The position numbers were made by a program, and so were the translations under genes. A stretch of DNA of 40,929 nucleotides from Daejeonella sp. Lineage in GTDB: Bacteria > Bacteroidota > Bacteroidia > Sphingobacteriales > Sphingobacteriaceae. Under the pieces are notes generated by a model that saw only the letters and a list, made by a program, of their open reading frames with translations, was not told the DNA's origin and made no database searches. The stretch lies in the NCBI GenBank assembly GCA_030831705.1, contig JAURKO010000240.1, positions 1 through 40,929 on the forward strand, read 5' to 3'. This document shows, in pieces, positions 20,899 to 30,533 of the stretch. The stretch's first letter is position 1. Each line of letters starts with the position of its first letter.

Positions 20899-21492
20899 CT
20901 ATTTTCCTGAATGTCTTCCCTCCAGATTTTGGGCAATTTTTTCAAGGCTGACGTTCTTTTCTTTCAACAATACCAGCAGATGAAATATCAGGTCAGACGC
21001 CTCATTGATTAAGTCATTCTCTGTTTCATTGAGTGCAGCAATAACAGTTTCAACACCTTCCTCACCAACCTTTTGTGCAATCTTATTCAATCCTTTATTT
21101 CGAAGCTTATTGACATAAGATTCTTCTACGGGATTTGCATATCGATCCCCAATGATTTTCTCCAGTTCAAAAATGAAATTCTGGTTAAATGCAGTATCAA
21201 AACAGCTTCTGTTGCCTTTGTGACAAGTAGGACCAATTGGATTTACTTTAATTAACAAAGTGTCATTATCACAATCCTCACTGATAGATAATACATCGAG
21301 ATAATTCCCGCTCTCCTCACCTTTTGTCCATAATCGGTTTTTCGATCTTGAAAAAAATGTGACCCTCTTTTCAGTGACTGTTTTCTGGTATGCTTCCGCA
21401 TTCATGTAGCCAAGCATTAACACTTCTAGCGTTTGCTCATCCTGAATGATTGCAGGTATCAGGCCATTTCCTTTATTGAAATCAATTGTCAT
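20899..21492 (-). CDS. hisIE: Bifunctional phosphoribosyl-AMP cyclohydrolase/phosphoribosyl-ATP pyrophosphatase
   Basis: FSRSKNRLWTKGEESGNYL, GPTCHKGNRSCF (HisI); KIAQKVGEEGVETVIAALNE (HisE). Confidence 0.97.
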   Translation of the reverse strand: MTIDFNKGNGLIPAIIQDEQTLEVLMLGYMNAEAYQKTVTEKRVTFFSRSKNRLWTKGEESGNYLDVLSISEDCDNDTLLIKVNPIGPTCHKGNRSCFDTAFNQNFIFELEKIIGDRYANPVEESYVNKLRNKGLNKIAQKVGEEGVETVIAALNETENDLINEASDLIFHLLVLLKEKNVSLEKIAQNLEGRHSGK

Positions 21493-21503
21493 GTTCTCCG
21501 GAC

Positions 21504-22304
21504 TTATAATCTAACTTCTATTTTATGTTTATGGAGCACTTTCTTCAAGTCGGGAATCAGAATTTCACCGTAATGAAAAACTGAAGCTGCAAGTGCTGCA
21601 TCTGCATTACTTATTTTAAATACATCCACAAAATCCTGAATATTTCCTGCACCACCGGAGGCAATCAGGGGAATGTTTAGCGTATTATTTATTTTCTTTA
21701 GCAAGCTATTATCAAAACCAGCTTTTGTACCATCATGGTCCATGGAAGTTAGAAGGATTTCTCCTGCACCCCTGCTCTCGGCTTCCTTAATCCAGTCTTC
21801 GGTCTCAATTTCTGTCGCAATTCTGCCTCCATTCAAGTGGACATAATTTTTGCCATTTATATGTTTTGTGTCAATAGCCACTACAACGAACTGCTTCCCA
21901 AATGCCATTGCAAGTTCATCGATAAATGCCGGGTTCCTGACTACTGCAGAATTAACAGAAATCTTGTCAGCTCCTGAGTTGAGAAGTACGTCGGCATCAG
22001 ATATCTCATTTATTCCCCCGCCAATTGTAAACGGAATGTTGACCTGCCTGGCAACAGCTTGAACAAGTTCAACAATTGTTTTTCTTCGCTCATGAGTTGC
22101 TGTAATGTCAAGAAATACAAGTTCATCAGCCCCTTGTCTGGAATACTGATAAGCTAATTCAACTGGATCTCCCGCATCTCTTAAAGAAACAAAATTGACG
22201 CCTTTAACGGTTCGTCCATCTTTTACATCAAGGCAGGGTATAATTCGTTTTGCCAGGTCATTGCCTGCAGTAATCACGTCAGTTTGTAGGATTGAGGATT
22301 TCAA
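21504..22304 (-). CDS. hisF: Imidazole glycerol phosphate synthase subunit HisF
   Basis: [34 protein letters not shown] ... FTIGGGI ... [10 protein letters not shown]. Confidence 0.97.
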
Positions 22305-22406
22305 AACTTAGATAAATGAATTACCCTTCTATGGGTGTTTGTTTGTAAAAAGAAATTAATTGCTTACCTAACTATGGCAAATTTTTAATTCTTAAAACCG
22401 AAAAAT

Positions 22407-23156
22407 TTAGAAACTAATCAATGCTTTAAGATTCCAGTCTTTAATTTCTTCTGTTGAAATTCGTCCTTCATAGATTGCTTTACCAACAACACATGATTCA
22501 ACTTTGATTTTTTGCAGATCTTCAATATCCTTCATTGAACTGATTCCACCTGAAGCAATCAATTTTATGAATGGGGAGTGTTCAAGCAACTTTTTATATA
22601 AACTTACTCCAGCACCGCCTAATTTACCATCCTTATCGATATCTGTGCATAGAAACCTAAAAAATCCAAGATTCAAACATTTATCAACATAATCCATCAG
22701 TTTAATGGGAGAACTTTCCATCCATCCTGAATATTTGATTACTTCATCAAGTACATCAATGGCCACCACAACCTGATCCTGACATTTCTCTTTACCACAT
22801 ACTTCCTGACTTAGCTCCTGAAGGAAATTTACATTGGTGATTGCCTGAGTTCCAACTATAACCCGATGGACTCCGGCATCAATCAGTTCTTTCACTTTTT
22901 CAATACTTCTGATGCCACCACCATACTGTATTTTTATACTCGTCTTGTGGATAATATCAAACAGATATTTTTGATTACTAAAATCACCCTTAGCACCGTT
23001 AAGGTCTATGATATGGATAAACTCAGTACCGTTAGAAGTGTATTTTTCAATCATCCCCTCCAGGGTAACATCATAAAATGTTGCCTGTTCATAGTCTCCT
23101 TCACGTAAACGGACAACCTTTCCGTTTAAAATATCAATAGCTGGAATTATATACAT
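22407..23156 (-). CDS. hisA: 1-(5-phosphoribosyl)-5-[(5-phosphoribosylamino)methylideneamino]imidazole-4-carboxamide isomerase
   Basis: MYIIPAIDILNGKVVRLREGDYEQ ... IQYGGGIRS ... LIASGGISSMKD. Confidence 0.96.
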   Translation of the reverse strand: MYIIPAIDILNGKVVRLREGDYEQATFYDVTLEGMIEKYTSNGTEFIHIIDLNGAKGDFSNQKYLFDIIHKTSIKIQYGGGIRSIEKVKELIDAGVHRVIVGTQAITNVNFLQELSQEVCGKEKCQDQVVVAIDVLDEVIKYSGWMESSPIKLMDYVDKCLNLGFFRFLCTDIDKDGKLGGAGVSLYKKLLEHSPFIKLIASGGISSMKDIEDLQKIKVESCVVGKAIYEGRISTEEIKDWNLKALISF

Positions 23157-23160
23157 GAGC

Positions 23161-23754
23161 TTAAACTAAGTGTGCAAAATTTTTTAACAATTGTTCACCG
23201 GCTACACCGGATTTTTCTGGATGAAACTGAACGCCATAAAAGTTATCTTTCTGTATAACCGCAGAGAATTTTATTCCGTATTCTGCTAAAGCAATCGTAA
23301 AAATAGAATTAAATTCTATAAAATAAGAGTGAACGAAATAAAAATGAGTTCCCGGTATGATATTTCTGAACAAAGGATTATTAGAAGACTGAAATACTTT
23401 ATTCCATCCGGTATGTGGTACTTTAATATTTAGTTTCTCACTAAATAGCCTTGTTTTGAGTGGAATTATACCTGTTAGATTGGAGTCACCTTCCTCTGAA
23501 TGGATGGTCAATAACTGCATTCCTACGCAAATTCCAAGCACTGGCTTCTTTAGAGCTATTATGGATGGCACTAGTCCGGTATCTTCCAGCTTTTGCATGG
23601 CCGAACCTGCATGGCCTACACCAGGAATAATATAGCGGTCGTATTTATCGAAGTCTTCTGCTTTTTTGATCATCCCATAGTTTAATTCAAGACGATCAAG
23701 AGCAGCAGTTAACGAAAAAATATTTCCGGCGCCATAATAAACTATACCAATCAT
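23161..23754 (-). CDS. hisH: Imidazole glycerol phosphate synthase subunit HisH
   Basis: GIVYYGAGNIFSL, IIPGVGHAG, PVLGICVGMQLL, VQFHPEKSG glutaminase motifs. Confidence 0.97.
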   Translation of the reverse strand: MIGIVYYGAGNIFSLTAALDRLELNYGMIKKAEDFDKYDRYIIPGVGHAGSAMQKLEDTGLVPSIIALKKPVLGICVGMQLLTIHSEEGDSNLTGIIPLKTRLFSEKLNIKVPHTGWNKVFQSSNNPLFRNIIPGTHFYFVHSYFIEFNSIFTIALAEYGIKFSAVIQKDNFYGVQFHPEKSGVAGEQLLKNFAHLV

Positions 23755-24845
23755 AATACTCCTTTAGTACTTGGCAATTCTGTTCCAGTAATTTGAATGG
23801 CTTGTTTTATGCATTTAGCCAGAGCCTTAAAGCTTGCTTCTATCATGTGATGGGTATTACTTCCATCTATAATTTTGAGATTTAAATTCATGCCGGCATG
23901 CTCAGAGAATGATTTCATCCAATGATCAAACATTTCTGTCGGGAAATCGCCAACGTACTCGCGGTCGAATTTGCCTTCATAAATAAAATAAGCCCGGTCA
24001 GAAAAATCAATAGCGCATTGAACCAGTGCCTCGTCCATCGGCAAAAGAAATCCATAACGCTCAATTCCGCGCTTATCTCCCAATGCCTGTTTAAAAGCTT
24101 TTCCCAATGCAATTGCACTGTCTTCAATTGTATGATGCTCATCAATTTCAAGGTCGCCCTGAACCCTGATAGTCAAGTCGATACCCGAATGCTTTGCCAA
24201 TTGATCAAGCATATGATCATAAAATTTCAATCCGGTATCAATGTTATGCTCACCATTTCCATCCAGGTTCAAAATCAGACTGATTTTCGTCTCTTTTGTA
24301 TTGCGCTCAAGTTCAACTAATCTGTCTTTTTTGGCACTAAGAAATTTACTTATTTCCTTCCAGTTATTACTACAAAGAGCTGTATTATCCAAGTTCCGGT
24401 TTGAAAAAAAGATAGCCTTACATCCAAGATTTACCGCAAGCTGAACATCAGTTTCACGGTCGCCTATAGTATAAGAATTATGAAGATCGATGAGGTTGGA
24501 GATCAGGTAATTAGTTAATAATCCAGTATTTGGCTTACGATTCGGACTATTATCCTCCGGAAAGGAATCATCAATGAATAGTTCAGCAAATCTTATCCCT
24601 TCATTTTCCAGAACCTTCAGCATTTTCTGATGTGGTTTTTGGAAATCCTCTTCAGGGAAACTGCTTGTGCCTCTTCCATCCTGATTGCTAACCATTACTA
24701 ATTCATACCCAAAATCTTGAAGCATTTTCAATGATGAAATTGCATAAGGAATGAACTCCAATTTTTCAAGACTATCTACCTGCATGTCGACAGGGGGCTC
24801 GACAATTATAGTTCCATCGCGATCAATAAATAATACTTTTTTCAT
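23751..24845 (-). CDS. hisB: Bifunctional histidinol-phosphatase/imidazoleglycerol-phosphate dehydratase
   Basis: N-terminal HAD domain (KKVLFIDRDGTII) fused to IGPD (FYDHMLDQLAKHSGIDL, DEHHTIEDSAIALG, HHMIEASFKALA). Confidence 0.97.
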   Translation of the reverse strand: MKKVLFIDRDGTIIVEPPVDMQVDSLEKLEFIPYAISSLKMLQDFGYELVMVSNQDGRGTSSFPEEDFQKPHQKMLKVLENEGIRFAELFIDDSFPEDNSPNRKPNTGLLTNYLISNLIDLHNSYTIGDRETDVQLAVNLGCKAIFFSNRNLDNTALCSNNWKEISKFLSAKKDRLVELERNTKETKISLILNLDGNGEHNIDTGLKFYDHMLDQLAKHSGIDLTIRVQGDLEIDEHHTIEDSAIALGKAFKQALGDKRGIERYGFLLPMDEALVQCAIDFSDRAYFIYEGKFDREYVGDFPTEMFDHWMKSFSEHAGMNLNLKIIDGSNTHHMIEASFKALAKCIKQAIQITGTELPSTKGVL

Positions 24846-25903
24846 ATTTCAATAGGATCCTGAAAGGTCTTTAAAGCATTTAATAATTCTATATTTTCTT
24901 GGGGAGTACCAATGGTTATTCGTAAACAACCATCACATAGTTCAACTTTAGAACGATCGCGAACAATAATGCCCAAACTGACTAAATAACTGTAAATAGC
25001 TTTTGGATTTATAGTTTTTACCAAAATAAAATTGGCATCAGAGGGATATATTTTTATTACCAATGCACATTGAGACAGTTCTTCTATTAATTTATTGCGT
25101 TCTGCCACAGTTTCTTTGATCCAGTTATTAACCTGATCTACATTCTGTAATGCTTCAAGAGCCAGCTCCTGTGATGCTTCATTAATATTATACGGTGGCT
25201 TCACTTTGTTGAAAACTTCTATTAATTCTTCACTTGCAAATGCCATCCCAACCCTCAATCCGGCAAGACCCCAAGCTTTTGATAGGGTTTGAAGTATAAC
25301 CAGATTCGAATATTCAGTTAGTTCCTGAATAAAAGTTTTTTGTCTACTATAATTGATATACGCTTCATCAATAACTACCAACCCATTAAAGTTGGCAATT
25401 ATGGTCTCAATATCCTGCCGGTCAATTGAGTTTCCGGTGGGATTATTTGGAGAGCAGATAAAAATAATTTTTGTGTGATCATCAATAGCTTCTGCTATTG
25501 CCTCCATATTCAGCTGATAATCAGACCTAAGAGGTATTTTGCGAACCTCAACATCATTGATATTTGCTGAAACTTCATACATTCCATAGGTAGGGGGGAG
25601 TGTTATCACATTATCTACTCCGGGATTACAGAATGCTCTAAATAGAATATCAATTGCTTCATCACTTCCGTTACCTAAGAAAATATTCTTAACCGGTACA
25701 CCCTTTATTTCAGACAGGCGTTTTTTCACTTTCAATTGAAGCGGATCAGGATAACGGTTGTAACTACGGTCTAAAGGGGAACCAAAGCTGTTTTCATTTG
25801 CATCCAAAAAAATGGAAGCTTCACCCTTGAACTCATCCCTGGCAGATGAGTAAGGCACAAGGTCCTTAATGTTTTTACGAAGTATATTATCTATGTTAAA
25901 CAT
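24842..25903 (-). CDS. hisC: Histidinol-phosphate aminotransferase
   Basis: LDANENSFGSP, LGNGSDEAIDILFRAF, CSPNNPTGN, QTLSKAWGLAGLRVG. Confidence 0.97.
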   Translation of the reverse strand: MFNIDNILRKNIKDLVPYSSARDEFKGEASIFLDANENSFGSPLDRSYNRYPDPLQLKVKKRLSEIKGVPVKNIFLGNGSDEAIDILFRAFCNPGVDNVITLPPTYGMYEVSANINDVEVRKIPLRSDYQLNMEAIAEAIDDHTKIIFICSPNNPTGNSIDRQDIETIIANFNGLVVIDEAYINYSRQKTFIQELTEYSNLVILQTLSKAWGLAGLRVGMAFASEELIEVFNKVKPPYNINEASQELALEALQNVDQVNNWIKETVAERNKLIEELSQCALVIKIYPSDANFILVKTINPKAIYSYLVSLGIIVRDRSKVELCDGCLRITIGTPQENIELLNALKTFQDPIEI

Positions 25904-25936
25904 CGTATTTCTTATTTTTAATGCCCGGATTATTTA

Positions 25937-27232
25937 TTACCGGCTGTCTTTTAAACGTACAGAAACAGCATTCTTATGTGCCTGTAATCCCTCGAGCGAT
26001 GCCAGAATCTCTACTGCTGGCCCAAGGTTTCTAATGCCCTCCTTGCTGATGTGCTGAAAGGTAATTTTTTTCACAAATGAATCTACTGAAACTCCTGAAT
26101 ATGCTTTTGCATATGAACTGGTAGGCAGCGTATGGTTTGTCCCTGAAGCATAATCTCCTGCACTTTCAGGAGTGAGATGCCCAAGGAATACCGAACCTGC
26201 ATTAATTATATCATCACTAATGCTTTCCCATAGATCTGTTGCCAGTATCAGGTGCTCAGGTGCATAGCTATTACTGAATTTCATTGCTTCTTTGAGATCA
26301 GAACAGAGAACAGCATAAGAATTGGCAATAGCTTTTGCAGCTATATCAGCTCTTGGTAGTAGGGCAAGCTGTTTTTTAAGTTCAATCTGGGTATCTTCAA
26401 TGATTTTTTCAGAAGTGCAAACCAGCACTGCCTGACTATCGATTCCATGTTCTGCCTGCGCCAAAAGATCAGCTGCTACATATTCTGCATTTGCGGTATC
26501 ATCGGCTATTACCAAAACTTCAGAAGGACCTGCCGGCATGTCTATTGCTGTGTGACTTTCAGATTGAATAATTGTTTTTGCCTTGGTTACATACTGATTG
26601 CCAGGGCCAAAAATCTTGTCAACTTTCAGGATACTTTCTGTCCCGTAAGCCATAGCAGCAACCGCCTGGGCGCCACCTGCAAGATAAATTCGGTCAATTT
26701 GAAGTATTTCGGCACAATAAGCAAGGTAAGCATTTACCTTCCCGTCTTTCTGTGGTGGCGAACAAACAATAATTTCTTTGCATCCGGCAATTCTTGCAGG
26801 TATACCCAACATCAGAAAGGTGCTTGGCAAAACCGCTGTTCCTCCTGGTATATATAGTCCAACTTTCTCAATTGCTCTTAACTCCCGCCAGCAGATGACA
26901 CCTTTGGATGTTTCAATCTTATCTTCCTTTTGGAGCTGATTTGCATGAAATTTCCATATGTTGTCATAAGCAAGTTTAAGAGCCTTTTTTGACTCTTCGG
27001 ATGCGCCTGAAGCGATCGTTTTAATTTCTTCTTTTTCCAAAAAGAGTTTATCGAGGGCAATTCCATCAAACTTTTTGGCAAAGCTTTTAAGGGCATTGTC
27101 GCCATTAAGCTTAACCTCATCTATAATTTCTGTAACTGCTGTCCGAATGTTATTGCTAGAATCTATGTTGCGTTTACAAAGTTCATTAACAGCTTTAGTG
27201 TCAAGATTCTTTAAATTATAGACGTTCAACAT
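25937..27232 (-). CDS. hisD: Histidinol dehydrogenase
   Basis: VGLYIPGGTAVLPST, FGPGNQYVTKAK, DMPAGPSEVLVIAD, LLAQAEHG, APEHL, SAGDYASGTNHTLPT. Confidence 0.98.
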   Translation of the reverse strand: MLNVYNLKNLDTKAVNELCKRNIDSSNNIRTAVTEIIDEVKLNGDNALKSFAKKFDGIALDKLFLEKEEIKTIASGASEESKKALKLAYDNIWKFHANQLQKEDKIETSKGVICWRELRAIEKVGLYIPGGTAVLPSTFLMLGIPARIAGCKEIIVCSPPQKDGKVNAYLAYCAEILQIDRIYLAGGAQAVAAMAYGTESILKVDKIFGPGNQYVTKAKTIIQSESHTAIDMPAGPSEVLVIADDTANAEYVAADLLAQAEHGIDSQAVLVCTSEKIIEDTQIELKKQLALLPRADIAAKAIANSYAVLCSDLKEAMKFSNSYAPEHLILATDLWESISDDIINAGSVFLGHLTPESAGDYASGTNHTLPTSSYAKAYSGVSVDSFVKKITFQHISKEGIRNLGPAVEILASLEGLQAHKNAVSVRLKDSR

Positions 27233-27243
27233 ACCAATACTTT

Positions 27244-28095
27244 TTATAAGATAATCTTTTCAATGGGCATTACGACAATTCCCTGGGCACCCGCATTTTT
27301 CAGCAGACTAATCTTTTCCCAAAAATCGCGTTCTGGAATTACTGTATGAATGGCTACCCAGCCGCTTTCTGCCAATGGCACTACAGTCGGACTTTTTACT
27401 CCTGGAAGAAGTTCAAGGATGCGATCCAGATTTTTAGATTCCGCATTCAGAACCACATATTTGGTTTCCTTAGCTCTCAGTACAGACTGGATTCTTTGAA
27501 TCAATTCAATAACCAGAGGTTCAACTTCAATTCCGTTTCTTCCGATCAGCACAGCTTCAGACTTCATCACCTCAGCAAATGGCTTTAGTCCGTTGCTTTT
27601 GAGTGTACCTCCTGTAGATACTATGTCGAATATTGCATCACTCAGTCCAAGCCCCGGAGCAATTTCAACCGAACCCGATATAGTACGGATTTCTGCATCG
27701 ATATTGTTCTGGTCCAGGTAGTTCTTAAGAATTACCGGATAGGAGGTTGCAATCGATTTTCCGTTCAGATCAGCTATCGTTTCAATTGTACTATGTGTTT
27801 GTACTGCCAGTTTTAAGGTGCATTTGCCAAATCCCAGCATTTGTAGGAAGCTGACATCTACCCCGGTTTCACTGATTACATTTTCGCCGACTATTCCTAG
27901 GTCGGCAATGCCATCCTGAACATATTCTGGAATATCATCATCCCGGAGAAATAATATTTCAAGTGGAAAATTTGATACATTGGATATCAAGGAGCTTTTG
28001 TAATTCTCGAAACTTAATCCGCAGTTTTTTAGTAGCTCGACCGATTTTTCGTTTAATCTACCAGATTTCTGGATAGCTATTTTAAGAGTTTTCAA
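27244..28095 (-). CDS. hisG: ATP phosphoribosyltransferase (apparent TTG start)
   Basis: KIAIQKSGRLNEKSVELLKNCGL ... GIADLGIVGENV ... IATSYPVILKNYL; C-terminal regulatory domain. Confidence 0.96.
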   Translation of the reverse strand: MKTLKIAIQKSGRLNEKSVELLKNCGLSFENYKSSLISNVSNFPLEILFLRDDDIPEYVQDGIADLGIVGENVISETGVDVSFLQMLGFGKCTLKLAVQTHSTIETIADLNGKSIATSYPVILKNYLDQNNIDAEIRTISGSVEIAPGLGLSDAIFDIVSTGGTLKSNGLKPFAEVMKSEAVLIGRNGIEVEPLVIELIQRIQSVLRAKETKYVVLNAESKNLDRILELLPGVKSPTVVPLAESGWVAIHTVIPERDFWEKISLLKNAGAQGIVVMPIEKIIL

Positions 28096-28116: not shown

Positions 28117-28180
28117 AAAAATTATTAAGAAATAGTTTCACGTAGAAACGTACATTATATTACATCGCCGCAAAGCGATG
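28117..28180 (-). promoter_or_regulatory. Candidate his attenuator region: two hairpins plus U-rich tract
   Basis: CATCGC/GCGATG (28163-28168/28175-28180) overlapping the last His codons; GTTTC/GAAAC (28135-28139/28145-28149) followed on the minus strand by TATTTCTTAATAATTTTT. Confidence 0.55.
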
Positions 28181-28216
28181 ATGAAAATGTAAGTGATGTG
28201 TGAAAACTATATTCAT
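28160..28216 (-). CDS. His-rich leader peptide MNIVFTHHLHFHHRFAAM
   Basis: Minus strand ATG AAT ATA GTT TTC ACA CAT CAC TTA CAT TTT CAT CAT CGC TTT GCG GCG ATG TAA; five His codons within seven consecutive codons; 64 bp upstream of hisG. Confidence 0.85.
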   Translation of the reverse strand: MNIVFTHHLHFHHRFAAM

Positions 28217-28247
28217 AATATTTGGCCCAAATAGCTTGGGAGGCCAG

Positions 28248-28255
28248 CAAATATA
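28248..28255 (-). promoter_or_regulatory. Bacteroidota-type -7 box TATATTTG for the his operon
   Basis: Exact TAnnTTTG match on the minus strand, 32 bp upstream of the leader-peptide ATG. Confidence 0.6.
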
Positions 28256-28289: not shown

Positions 28290-28426
28290 TTGAGAGTTGA
28301 GAGTTGAGAATTGACAGTTGAAAGAGTGCTAAATTGTAATATTTCCATTTTCTAATTTTTCAACTATTTATTGTTGTCTGTTTTAGCGAAACTCAATTCT
28401 CAATTCTCCACTCTCAATTCTCAACT
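28290..28426. repeat. Two heptad arrays in inverted orientation (28290-28324 and 28392-28426)
   Basis: TTGAGAG|TTGAGAG|TTGAGAA|TTGACAG|TTGAAAG then, after 67 bp, CTCAATT|CTCAATT|CTCCACT|CTCAATT|CTCAACT; five units each. Confidence 0.8.
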
Positions 28427-28478: not shown

Positions 28479-30533
28479 ATGAGATTCCTGTCGCCCGGAT
28501 TTTTATTTGCCCTTTTGACAATCGCAATTCCTGTCATTATCCATCTTTTTAATTTCAGAAAGTTTAAGAAAGTATATTTCAGCAATGTTCGATTTTTAAA
28601 AGACGTCCAGCTACAAATATCTTCACGGCAACATCTTAAAGATAGGTTGATTCTGTTCACAAGGATTCTTGGTCTTAGTTTTCTGGCTTTTGCATTTGCA
28701 CAACCATATATCCCGGCAGAGGATCAGAGAAATGGTTTTCAGCAAGAGGTTCTAAGTATCTATATTGATAATTCCTACAGCATGGAAGCTGTAAATAAGG
28801 AAGGAACTCTGCTGGATGAGGCGAAAAGAAAAGCCAGAGAACTTTCATCAGCCCATGGTATCAGCGATAAATTTCAGCTACTAACTAATGACTTTGAGGG
28901 TAAAAACCAAAGGCTTTTAAGTTTTGAAGAATTTCAAAATGCAGTTGATGAAGTAAAGATCAGTTCAGCTAATCGCACAATTGATCAGATAATTAGTCGC
29001 CAAAGGGAGGTGTTTCTGAAGGAGCCAAACTCACTCAAAACAATCTACTTTATTTCTGATTTTCAGAAAAGTATAATTCCTGAAGATCCTATACCTGTTG
29101 ACAGTTCAATTAAGATTCGGCTTGTCAAATTGAGTTCCAATTCTCTTCCCAATGTTTCAATTGATTCGGTATGGTTCGGTACTGCTATTCATAAGCCAGG
29201 TGATTCAGAGAAGCTCGTGGTCAGACTTCGTAATAATTCAGATGAAGAAGCACTGAATATTCCGGTGAAATTACAAGTTAACAAAGTGCAAAAAGCTATC
29301 GCAAGCATGACTATCAGTCCGCGAAGCATGCAGACAGATACCTTAAACTTCAGTGGTTTGAATTCAGGTTGGCAGCAAGCTGAATTGGAGATTACAGATT
29401 TCCCGGTAGTTTTCGACGATAAGTTTTATTTTAGCTTTAATGTTCAGCCTTCACTCTCTGTACTTATTATTAGTGGAGGTAAACAGAATGAGTATCTCAA
29501 CTCGGTCTATCGCTCCGATCCATTTTTTAAGGTAATTAATGTGGCATCTGGCAATATTAATTATTCAGGATTGTCAGAATATCCTTTGATTATTCTGAAT
29601 GAAGTCGCATCTATAAGTGATGGATTGATCCAACAATTGAACAGTTACATCCTACGGGGTGGCAGTCTGATTGTTTTCCCTGATCTTGAAAATGACCAAT
29701 CTGATTTAAAGAAATTTCTTGCTAAAGTGGGCACAGATATCCCTATTCAGGTTTTGAATACAGAAAATAAGGTCACAGCAATTAATTTGGATCATCCAGT
29801 TTTTCAGGGTGTTTTTGAAAATGTCCCTAAGCAAATAGATCTTCCTATTGTTAAAAAATATCTTCGATACAGTTCACAAAACACTAATAATCGTCAAAAC
29901 TTACTCGAGATGCAGGGTAAAATTTCATTTTTTAGTGAATACAAGATTGGCTCCGGGAAAATATACTTGTCGGCTGCAACTTTAAACTCTGAAACGAGTA
30001 ATTTTGCAAGACATTCAGTTTTTGTGCCTATCATGTATCAGACAGCGCTTTTATCACTACGAAACCAGAATTTATTTTTCAAATTGAACCGTGATCAGCA
30101 AATTGAATTGCCAAAAATATCCTTAAACTCAAATCAAACTCTTAAATTGAAGAATGAGAAGTTTGAGGCAATACCTGATCTAAGGCAAAATGAGAATTTT
30201 TCTCAGCTATACATTGCTGATCAGATCAAAAAAGCCGAAAATTATCAATTATTGAAAAATGATAGTTTGATAGCAGTGCTTTCTTTTAACGAAAACGGTT
30301 CAGAATCTAATATGAGCTATTTGAACAATGGACAGATAAAAGAGCTATTTCCCAAACAGAAAATTGAAATTTTGAATACGGATCCGAGTTCTATATCAAA
30401 TGCTGTAAAATCTATTGATCAGGGAACTTCATTATGGAAAGTTTGTCTGATATTGGCCTTATTTTTCTTTGCTGCCGAGATTTTACTCTTACGCTTTTAC
30501 AAAGGGACTCAAATTAAACCTATAAACAATTGA
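28479..30533 (+). CDS. BatA-domain/vWA-like membrane protein
   Basis: N-terminal MRFLSPGFLFALLTIAIPVIIHLFNFRKFKKVYFSNVRFLKDVQ is the BatA-type N-terminus; vWA-like SIYIDNSYSMEA; C-terminal TM. Confidence 0.87.
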   Translation: MRFLSPGFLFALLTIAIPVIIHLFNFRKFKKVYFSNVRFLKDVQLQISSRQHLKDRLILFTRILGLSFLAFAFAQPYIPAEDQRNGFQQEVLSIYIDNSYSMEAVNKEGTLLDEAKRKARELSSAHGISDKFQLLTNDFEGKNQRLLSFEEFQNAVDEVKISSANRTIDQIISRQREVFLKEPNSLKTIYFISDFQKSIIPEDPIPVDSSIKIRLVKLSSNSLPNVSIDSVWFGTAIHKPGDSEKLVVRLRNNSDEEALNIPVKLQVNKVQKAIASMTISPRSMQTDTLNFSGLNSGWQQAELEITDFPVVFDDKFYFSFNVQPSLSVLIISGGKQNEYLNSVYRSDPFFKVINVASGNINYSGLSEYPLIILNEVASISDGLIQQLNSYILRGGSLIVFPDLENDQSDLKKFLAKVGTDIPIQVLNTENKVTAINLDHPVFQGVFENVPKQIDLPIVKKYLRYSSQNTNNRQNLLEMQGKISFFSEYKIGSGKIYLSAATLNSETSNFARHSVFVPIMYQTALLSLRNQNLFFKLNRDQQIELPKISLNSNQTLKLKNEKFEAIPDLRQNENFSQLYIADQIKKAENYQLLKNDSLIAVLSFNENGSESNMSYLNNGQIKELFPKQKIEILNTDPSSISNAVKSIDQGTSLWKVCLILALFFFAAEILLLRFYKGTQIKPINN

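Follow-up and report, generated by a model that had tools for sequence, protein, structure and literature searches.

The his leader of Enterobacteria, hisL (RF00514), consists of a short His-rich ORF ahead of the his operon and of mutually exclusive RNA folds which are switched by the translating ribosome. In the pyrBI leader of E. coli the leader ORF extends into the OFF hairpin, and in erm leaders a stalled ribosome frees a downstream start. Bacteroid-trp is a trp leader attenuator with Trp codons and a terminator. This RNA (RF01692) has been listed among candidate structured RNAs of Bacteroidetes (PMC2864571). Attenuators of his operons have been described in Proteobacteria and Firmicutes; the Firmicutes leaders carry 3-5 consecutive His codons, and alternative hairpins were proposed (PMC9413887). 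For Flavobacterium psychrophilum signs of leader-peptide attenuation ahead of amino-acid operons were reported, together with a structured 5' element at hisG which is conserved in Flavobacteriaceae and has no Rfam hit; His codons and a mechanism at hisG are not described in the main text (PMC9723704). Thus, this kind of regulation is known and has partly been seen in the phylum.

Here we present a his leader from a Daejeonella genome. The window, i.e., the whole stretch of 40,929 nucleotides that was analysed, has Daejeonella as its closest named relatives, and in this Daejeonella-like Sphingobacteriaceae genome the leader stands ahead of hisGDCBHAF-IE. The element has a short His-rich ORF upstream of the his operon, as ribosome-mediated amino-acid attenuators require. 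Its parts, in the direction of transcription, are:

28248..28255, minus strand: putative promoter box of the Bacteroidota -7 type, TATATTTG (TAnnTTTG), assigned by sequence
28214..28230, minus strand: 5' strand of P0/P0b, TTGGGCCAAA (28230-28221) and TATTA (28220-28216), up to the leader start codon
28160..28216, minus strand: leader ORF MNIVFTHHLHFHHRFAAM, 18 codons, five His in codons 7-13, conserved in family and class
28200..28210, minus strand: 5' strand of P4, ATAGTTT and CAC, leader codons 3-6, pairs with 28141-28132
28186..28194, minus strand: 5' strand of P5, AC and TACATT, leader codons 8-11, pairs with 28156-28148
28163..28180, minus strand: hairpin P2 at the apex, CATCGCT-TTGC-GGCGATG, starting at the last His codon and reaching up to the stop
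28135..28149, minus strand: hairpin P3, GTTTC-TACGT-GAAAC, the proposed ON (starvation) fold, competes with P4/P5
28106..28131, minus strand: 3' strand of the long-hairpin base, TTC, TAATA, TTTTT (28121-28117) and GGTCTAA, stops 10 nt before hisG
27244..28095, minus strand: hisG, which heads the his operon presumably under control of the leader; it starts with TTG at 28095
20899..27232, minus strand: hisD, hisC, hisB, hisH, hisA, hisF and hisIE, presumably the remaining operon, judged by eye from ORF translations

The leader ORF carries no annotation. A preliminary description of this DNA had called a promoter box with an ATG 32 nt downstream, a leader peptide with His at five of seven positions, and a CATCGC/GCGATG hairpin over the last His codons. 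All three are in place: the box precedes the ATG at 28216 by 32 nt, the His codons occupy five of the positions 7-13, and CATCGCT (28180-28174) pairs with GGCGATG (28169-28163) from the last His codon to the stop. The element extends past 28117, where it had been taken to end, to about 28106. Most relatives have the same box ahead of their leader; Bacteroidota promoters are outside the coverage of the sigma-70 promoter scan. Further upstream, at 28290-28420, the window contains degenerate short repeats, TCAACTCTCAATTCTC / GAGAATTGAGAATTGAG, and other Daejeonella have similar CAACTGTCAACT repeats at the corresponding place. The divergent neighbour on the plus strand (28479-30533) encodes 684 aa with an N-terminus which is BatA-like by eye.

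The preliminary description had proposed a comparison of hisG-upstream regions. The sample spans the genus, the rest of the family, further families of the class and, beyond Bacteroidia, further classes of the phylum; a His-rich leader was taken to be a short ORF in which 10 codons include at least 4 His. Such a leader is present in 96% of 138 Sphingobacteriaceae regions (some species are counted twice). It is found in 77% of 64 regions from other families of Bacteroidia and in 0 of 8 regions from other classes of the phylum, whereby the class of some families was set, partly by inference, from hisG identity (about 50% Bacteroidia vs. about 33% other) and kinship labels. The control rates are 0.6-0.9% in shuffles and 0 on the reverse strand. 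Leaders of the family contain 4-11 His and mostly 15-24 codons. In a few members (L021, L076, L122 and L135) no His-rich leader was found. In two Sphingobacteriales MAGs (L058, L076) the leader is degenerate and has few His codons, possibly a sign of decaying control. Because the leader is conserved to this extent while shuffles stay below 1%, ribosome-mediated histidine attenuation is very likely. The comparison bears out the earlier proposal of a his-operon leader of this type: the His-codon run is kept, and the hairpins show compensatory changes.

The hairpins comprise two folds. The first, predicted for the window leader with z = -5.46 (0 of 200 shuffles were as good), is a single long hairpin, P0-P4-P5-P2, which the preliminary description had missed. 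P0 pairs TTGGGCCAAA with TTTGGTCTAA (28119-28110); P0b, around the leader ATG, joins TATTA to TAATA (28127-28123) and GAA to TTC; P4 pairs ATAGTTT/CAC with AAACTAT/GTG; P5 pairs TACATT with AATGTA. Since the 5' strands of P4, P5 and P2 fall within the ORF, the leader ORF itself constitutes the 5' strand of the long hairpin. CTAT and the 3' arm of P3 together make up the 3' side of P4. A single 3' strand thus serves either P3 or P4/P5, and the two are mutually exclusive. Two exclusive folds, one of which overlaps the sensing codons, are what characterizes amino-acid attenuators, and here both folds covary.

How firm is this covariation? Aligning 75 sequences with MAFFT and scanning column pairs showed no covariation, the A/U-rich parts being too misaligned; therefore alignment-free tests and a 25-sequence alignment were used. 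From 25 relatives RNAalifold proposed P4, P5 and P2 unprompted, with P5 present in the consensus. By pair counting 94.6% of the cells are paired, with a covariation of 0.163 against 0.133 in shuffles (0 of 500), and slid controls do not exceed 0.092; for P3 (40 variants) the values are 0.430 against 0.190 (0 of 500) and at most 0.149, all such counts being inflated by relatedness among the sequences. The P3 closing pair changes from C-G to G-C among variants. P2 has 98% of its cells paired; its stem reaches 6 bp or more in 106 of 114 family sequences, and both CGCC:GGCG and CACC:GGTG versions occur. In the alignment-free helix test the 5' strand of each genus was matched with its own or with a foreign genus's 3' strand. 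Genus permutation, with groups partly assigned by the author from record titles and similarity, gave p = 5e-5 for P0, 2e-4 for P0b and 1e-4 for P4; the control pairings of the UTR with the P3 arms gave 0.15 and 0.75. P4 exists in clade versions, ATAGTTTT:GAAACTAT, CAGTTTTAC:GTGAAACTG, CAGATTGCTTT:GAAGCAGTTTG, TTTTGAC:GTCAAAA and ACTCGC:GCGAGT. A clear P0 was not found in a few Mucilaginibacter sequences. In many sequences leader TCACGTA could pair with TACGTGA of the P3 loop, yet compensatory change is absent; the window has TCACTTA, and P4/P5 are preferred.

A covariance model of the element was built from 25 sequences. In the window's genome the site described here is the sole match. All five family genomes scanned have matches, and a further 71 family loci were found, every one directly upstream of hisG. 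Among 144 genomes from other families of the class none matched; because strict filters were used in the genome scan, weak relatives may have been missed.

The folds were examined in a ribosome-mask simulation of 105 sequences in which about 31 nt were masked; the footprint is an assumption and co-transcriptional folding is neglected. Without a ribosome P3 has a mean predicted probability of 0.24; this rises to 0.83 when the ribosome is placed on the first His codon and falls to 0.69 and 0.53 on the middle and last ones, and to 0.04 on the stop codon. For the same five situations the 3' arm of P3 pairs with the ORF at 0.48, 0.02, 0.08, 0.25 and 0.46. Because P3 forms in the simulation with a ribosome on the His codons and not in free RNA or with the ribosome at the stop, P3 is probably the ON fold and the long hairpin the OFF fold. 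In the window itself P3 reaches 0.00, 0.73, 0.36, 0.01 and 0.00; therefore the ribosome would have to stall on the first His codons in this case. This narrow range, with P3 favoured for the first His codon but scarcely for the last, is a point against an attenuator.

We consider it likely, all the same, that the element is a ribosome-mediated histidine attenuator, with histidine as the signal and the fold assignment and OFF action as follows. The leader ORF would be translated as soon as it is transcribed. With ample charged His-tRNA the ribosome would reach the stop near the hairpin apex and depart, whereupon the 5' UTR and the leader ORF would zip up with the RNA behind them into P0-P4-P5-P2, the OFF state, just before hisG. 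When charged His-tRNA is scarce the ribosome would stall on codons 7-13 and cover the 5' strand; the freed 3' strand could then form the local P3 hairpin, the ON state. In the OFF state RNA polymerase would most likely be stopped at the U-run behind the hairpin base, and in compact layouts the long hairpin would probably also hide the weak TTG/GTG start of hisG in read-through RNA.

Several other explanations must be weighed. That the His codons are a chance run in an untranslated stretch could appeal to the missing annotation, but dinucleotide shuffles of the window's 250-nt region gave at least 4 His codons in 10 codons of a short ORF in 0.85% for the window alone, and the run recurs in dozens of genera. 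The probability of this explanation is negligible; conservation refutes it. A classical attenuator, in which GTTTC/GAAAC and the U-rich stretch behind it form the terminator, had been the preliminary suggestion. The hairpin is real and conserved (28149-28145 / 28139-28135), and U-rich sequence does follow; the directly adjoining U tract does not exist since the T5 run at 28121-28117 begins 13 nt beyond the 5-bp stem. Mucilaginibacter has AACAACCCCC after the hairpin instead of U. A terminator-like site was not found in the scan of the window region. A scan for compact terminators (hairpins no longer than 45 nt, at most -9 kcal/mol, U tract at the end), identical for all groups, found one before hisG in none of 114 Sphingobacteriaceae sequences and in 43 of 64 regions from other Bacteroidia. 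Moreover, P3 is predicted to form upon ribosome stalling, in the starved state, which would be the wrong one for a terminator. P3 is probably no terminator, and we regard the classical scheme as very improbable.

The way in which OFF acts is less clear-cut. A purely translational output would retain the same sensing and folds, with the initiation region of hisG masked by the long hairpin until a stalled ribosome opens it, in the manner of erm. The absence of compact terminators from all 114 family sequences fits, as does P0, whose covariation continues past the U-run and which in compact layouts stops 10-14 nt short of hisG; its part beyond the U-run is unneeded for plain termination. The start codons point in the same direction: hisG begins with TTG/GTG in 99 of 100 compact family layouts, whereas all 10 displaced copies use ATG (Fisher p = 2e-13, uncorrected for relatedness). 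None of the TTG/GTG cases in the family has an upstream in-frame ATG, while in other Bacteroidia one is available for hisG in 58 of 64. Against termination, the U-run is shorter than 5 in 44% of family sequences, and the A/U-rich base of the long hairpin makes a poor intrinsic terminator. On the other hand, the element is kept in Olivibacter, Parapedobacter and some Sphingobacterium-like genomes with hisG 77-296 nt after P3. In Olivibacter and Parapedobacter hiding the hisG start could not work at this distance, and several such genomes retain a T-run of 5-6 located 14-21 nt from P3. A translational output also leaves the U-run bias unexplained (56% of family tails have a T run of at least 5, as do 31% of shuffled ones; the figure for A runs of 5 is 19%), and in the simulation the base stays partly paired around the stalled ribosome. 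We judge a purely translational output rather unlikely. Rho-dependent attenuation, in which a C-rich, G-poor tail recruits Rho once ribosomes leave at the leader stop, could build on the tail composition (C 18%, G 7%), on a C-run after P3 in many genera and on the missing compact intrinsic terminator. Yet the tail measures merely about 40-65 nt in compact layouts and is strongly paired, leaving little free RNA, and Daejeonella, the window's genus, has no C-run; this makes the proposal improbable. A long hairpin with a U-run behind it may serve as the terminator before hisG; we favour, without certainty, an OFF state of termination plus a translational layer.

Two groups of sequences deserve separate mention. 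Parapedobacter and one Sphingobacterium-like genome (L020, L063, L085, L103, L144) carry extra sequence between leader and hisG with similar CATGCAAGCTTC-like stretches, possibly an inserted repeat; Parapedobacter retains TTGAAACC, a remnant of the old hisG start. Ten members of another family of Bacteroidia, f35 (L178, L188, L189, L193, L196, L199, L204, L205, L206, L208), have leaders with 4-11 His before hisG; nine lack a compact terminator and the four that were folded show no obvious long hairpin. They possibly represent a third architecture.

These data indicate a wide use of leader peptides in controlling histidine synthesis across Bacteroidia, a class for which little has been reported on how amino-acid operons are regulated; they also supply a covariance model of the Sphingobacteriaceae version. 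The exchange of a compact terminator for an ORF-embedded hairpin is a natural experiment in attenuator evolution. It is conceivable, if somewhat doubtful, that the Sphingobacteriaceae swapped a terminator-based his attenuator for a terminator-less one in which starvation acts mainly on the translation of hisG from its weak TTG/GTG start. If true, amino-acid starvation would be read out via translational attenuation, with the leader gene as one strand of a long hairpin. The start-codon correlation renders transcriptional versus translational control directly testable in culturable Pedobacter or Mucilaginibacter.

How does the element compare with known systems? Rfam has no match in the window, and His_leader (RF00514) appears neither at the gathering score nor at E<=10; a region from another family (L171) resembles it weakly (36.8 bits, under the cut-off of 49). 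With hisL it shares the ORF and the exclusive folds, but the window has no compact terminator and its leader ORF is itself the 5' strand of the OFF hairpin. The Firmicutes attenuators are alike in their His-codon leader and alternative hairpins; they differ in the classical terminator/antiterminator hairpins and in phylum. The F. psychrophilum element shares phylum and gene. The Sphingobacteriaceae version lacks a canonical terminator, whereas the other Bacteroidia surveyed mostly combine leader and canonical terminator. Bacteroid-trp serves another operon. With pyrBI and erm, likened here by description, the layout logic is similar and the signal is another. The literature searched contains no description of the class-wide distribution or of the long-hairpin variant, although Bacteroidetes his attenuators may have been listed earlier. 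The principle of attenuation is known; the long-hairpin architecture looks like a new variant of it.
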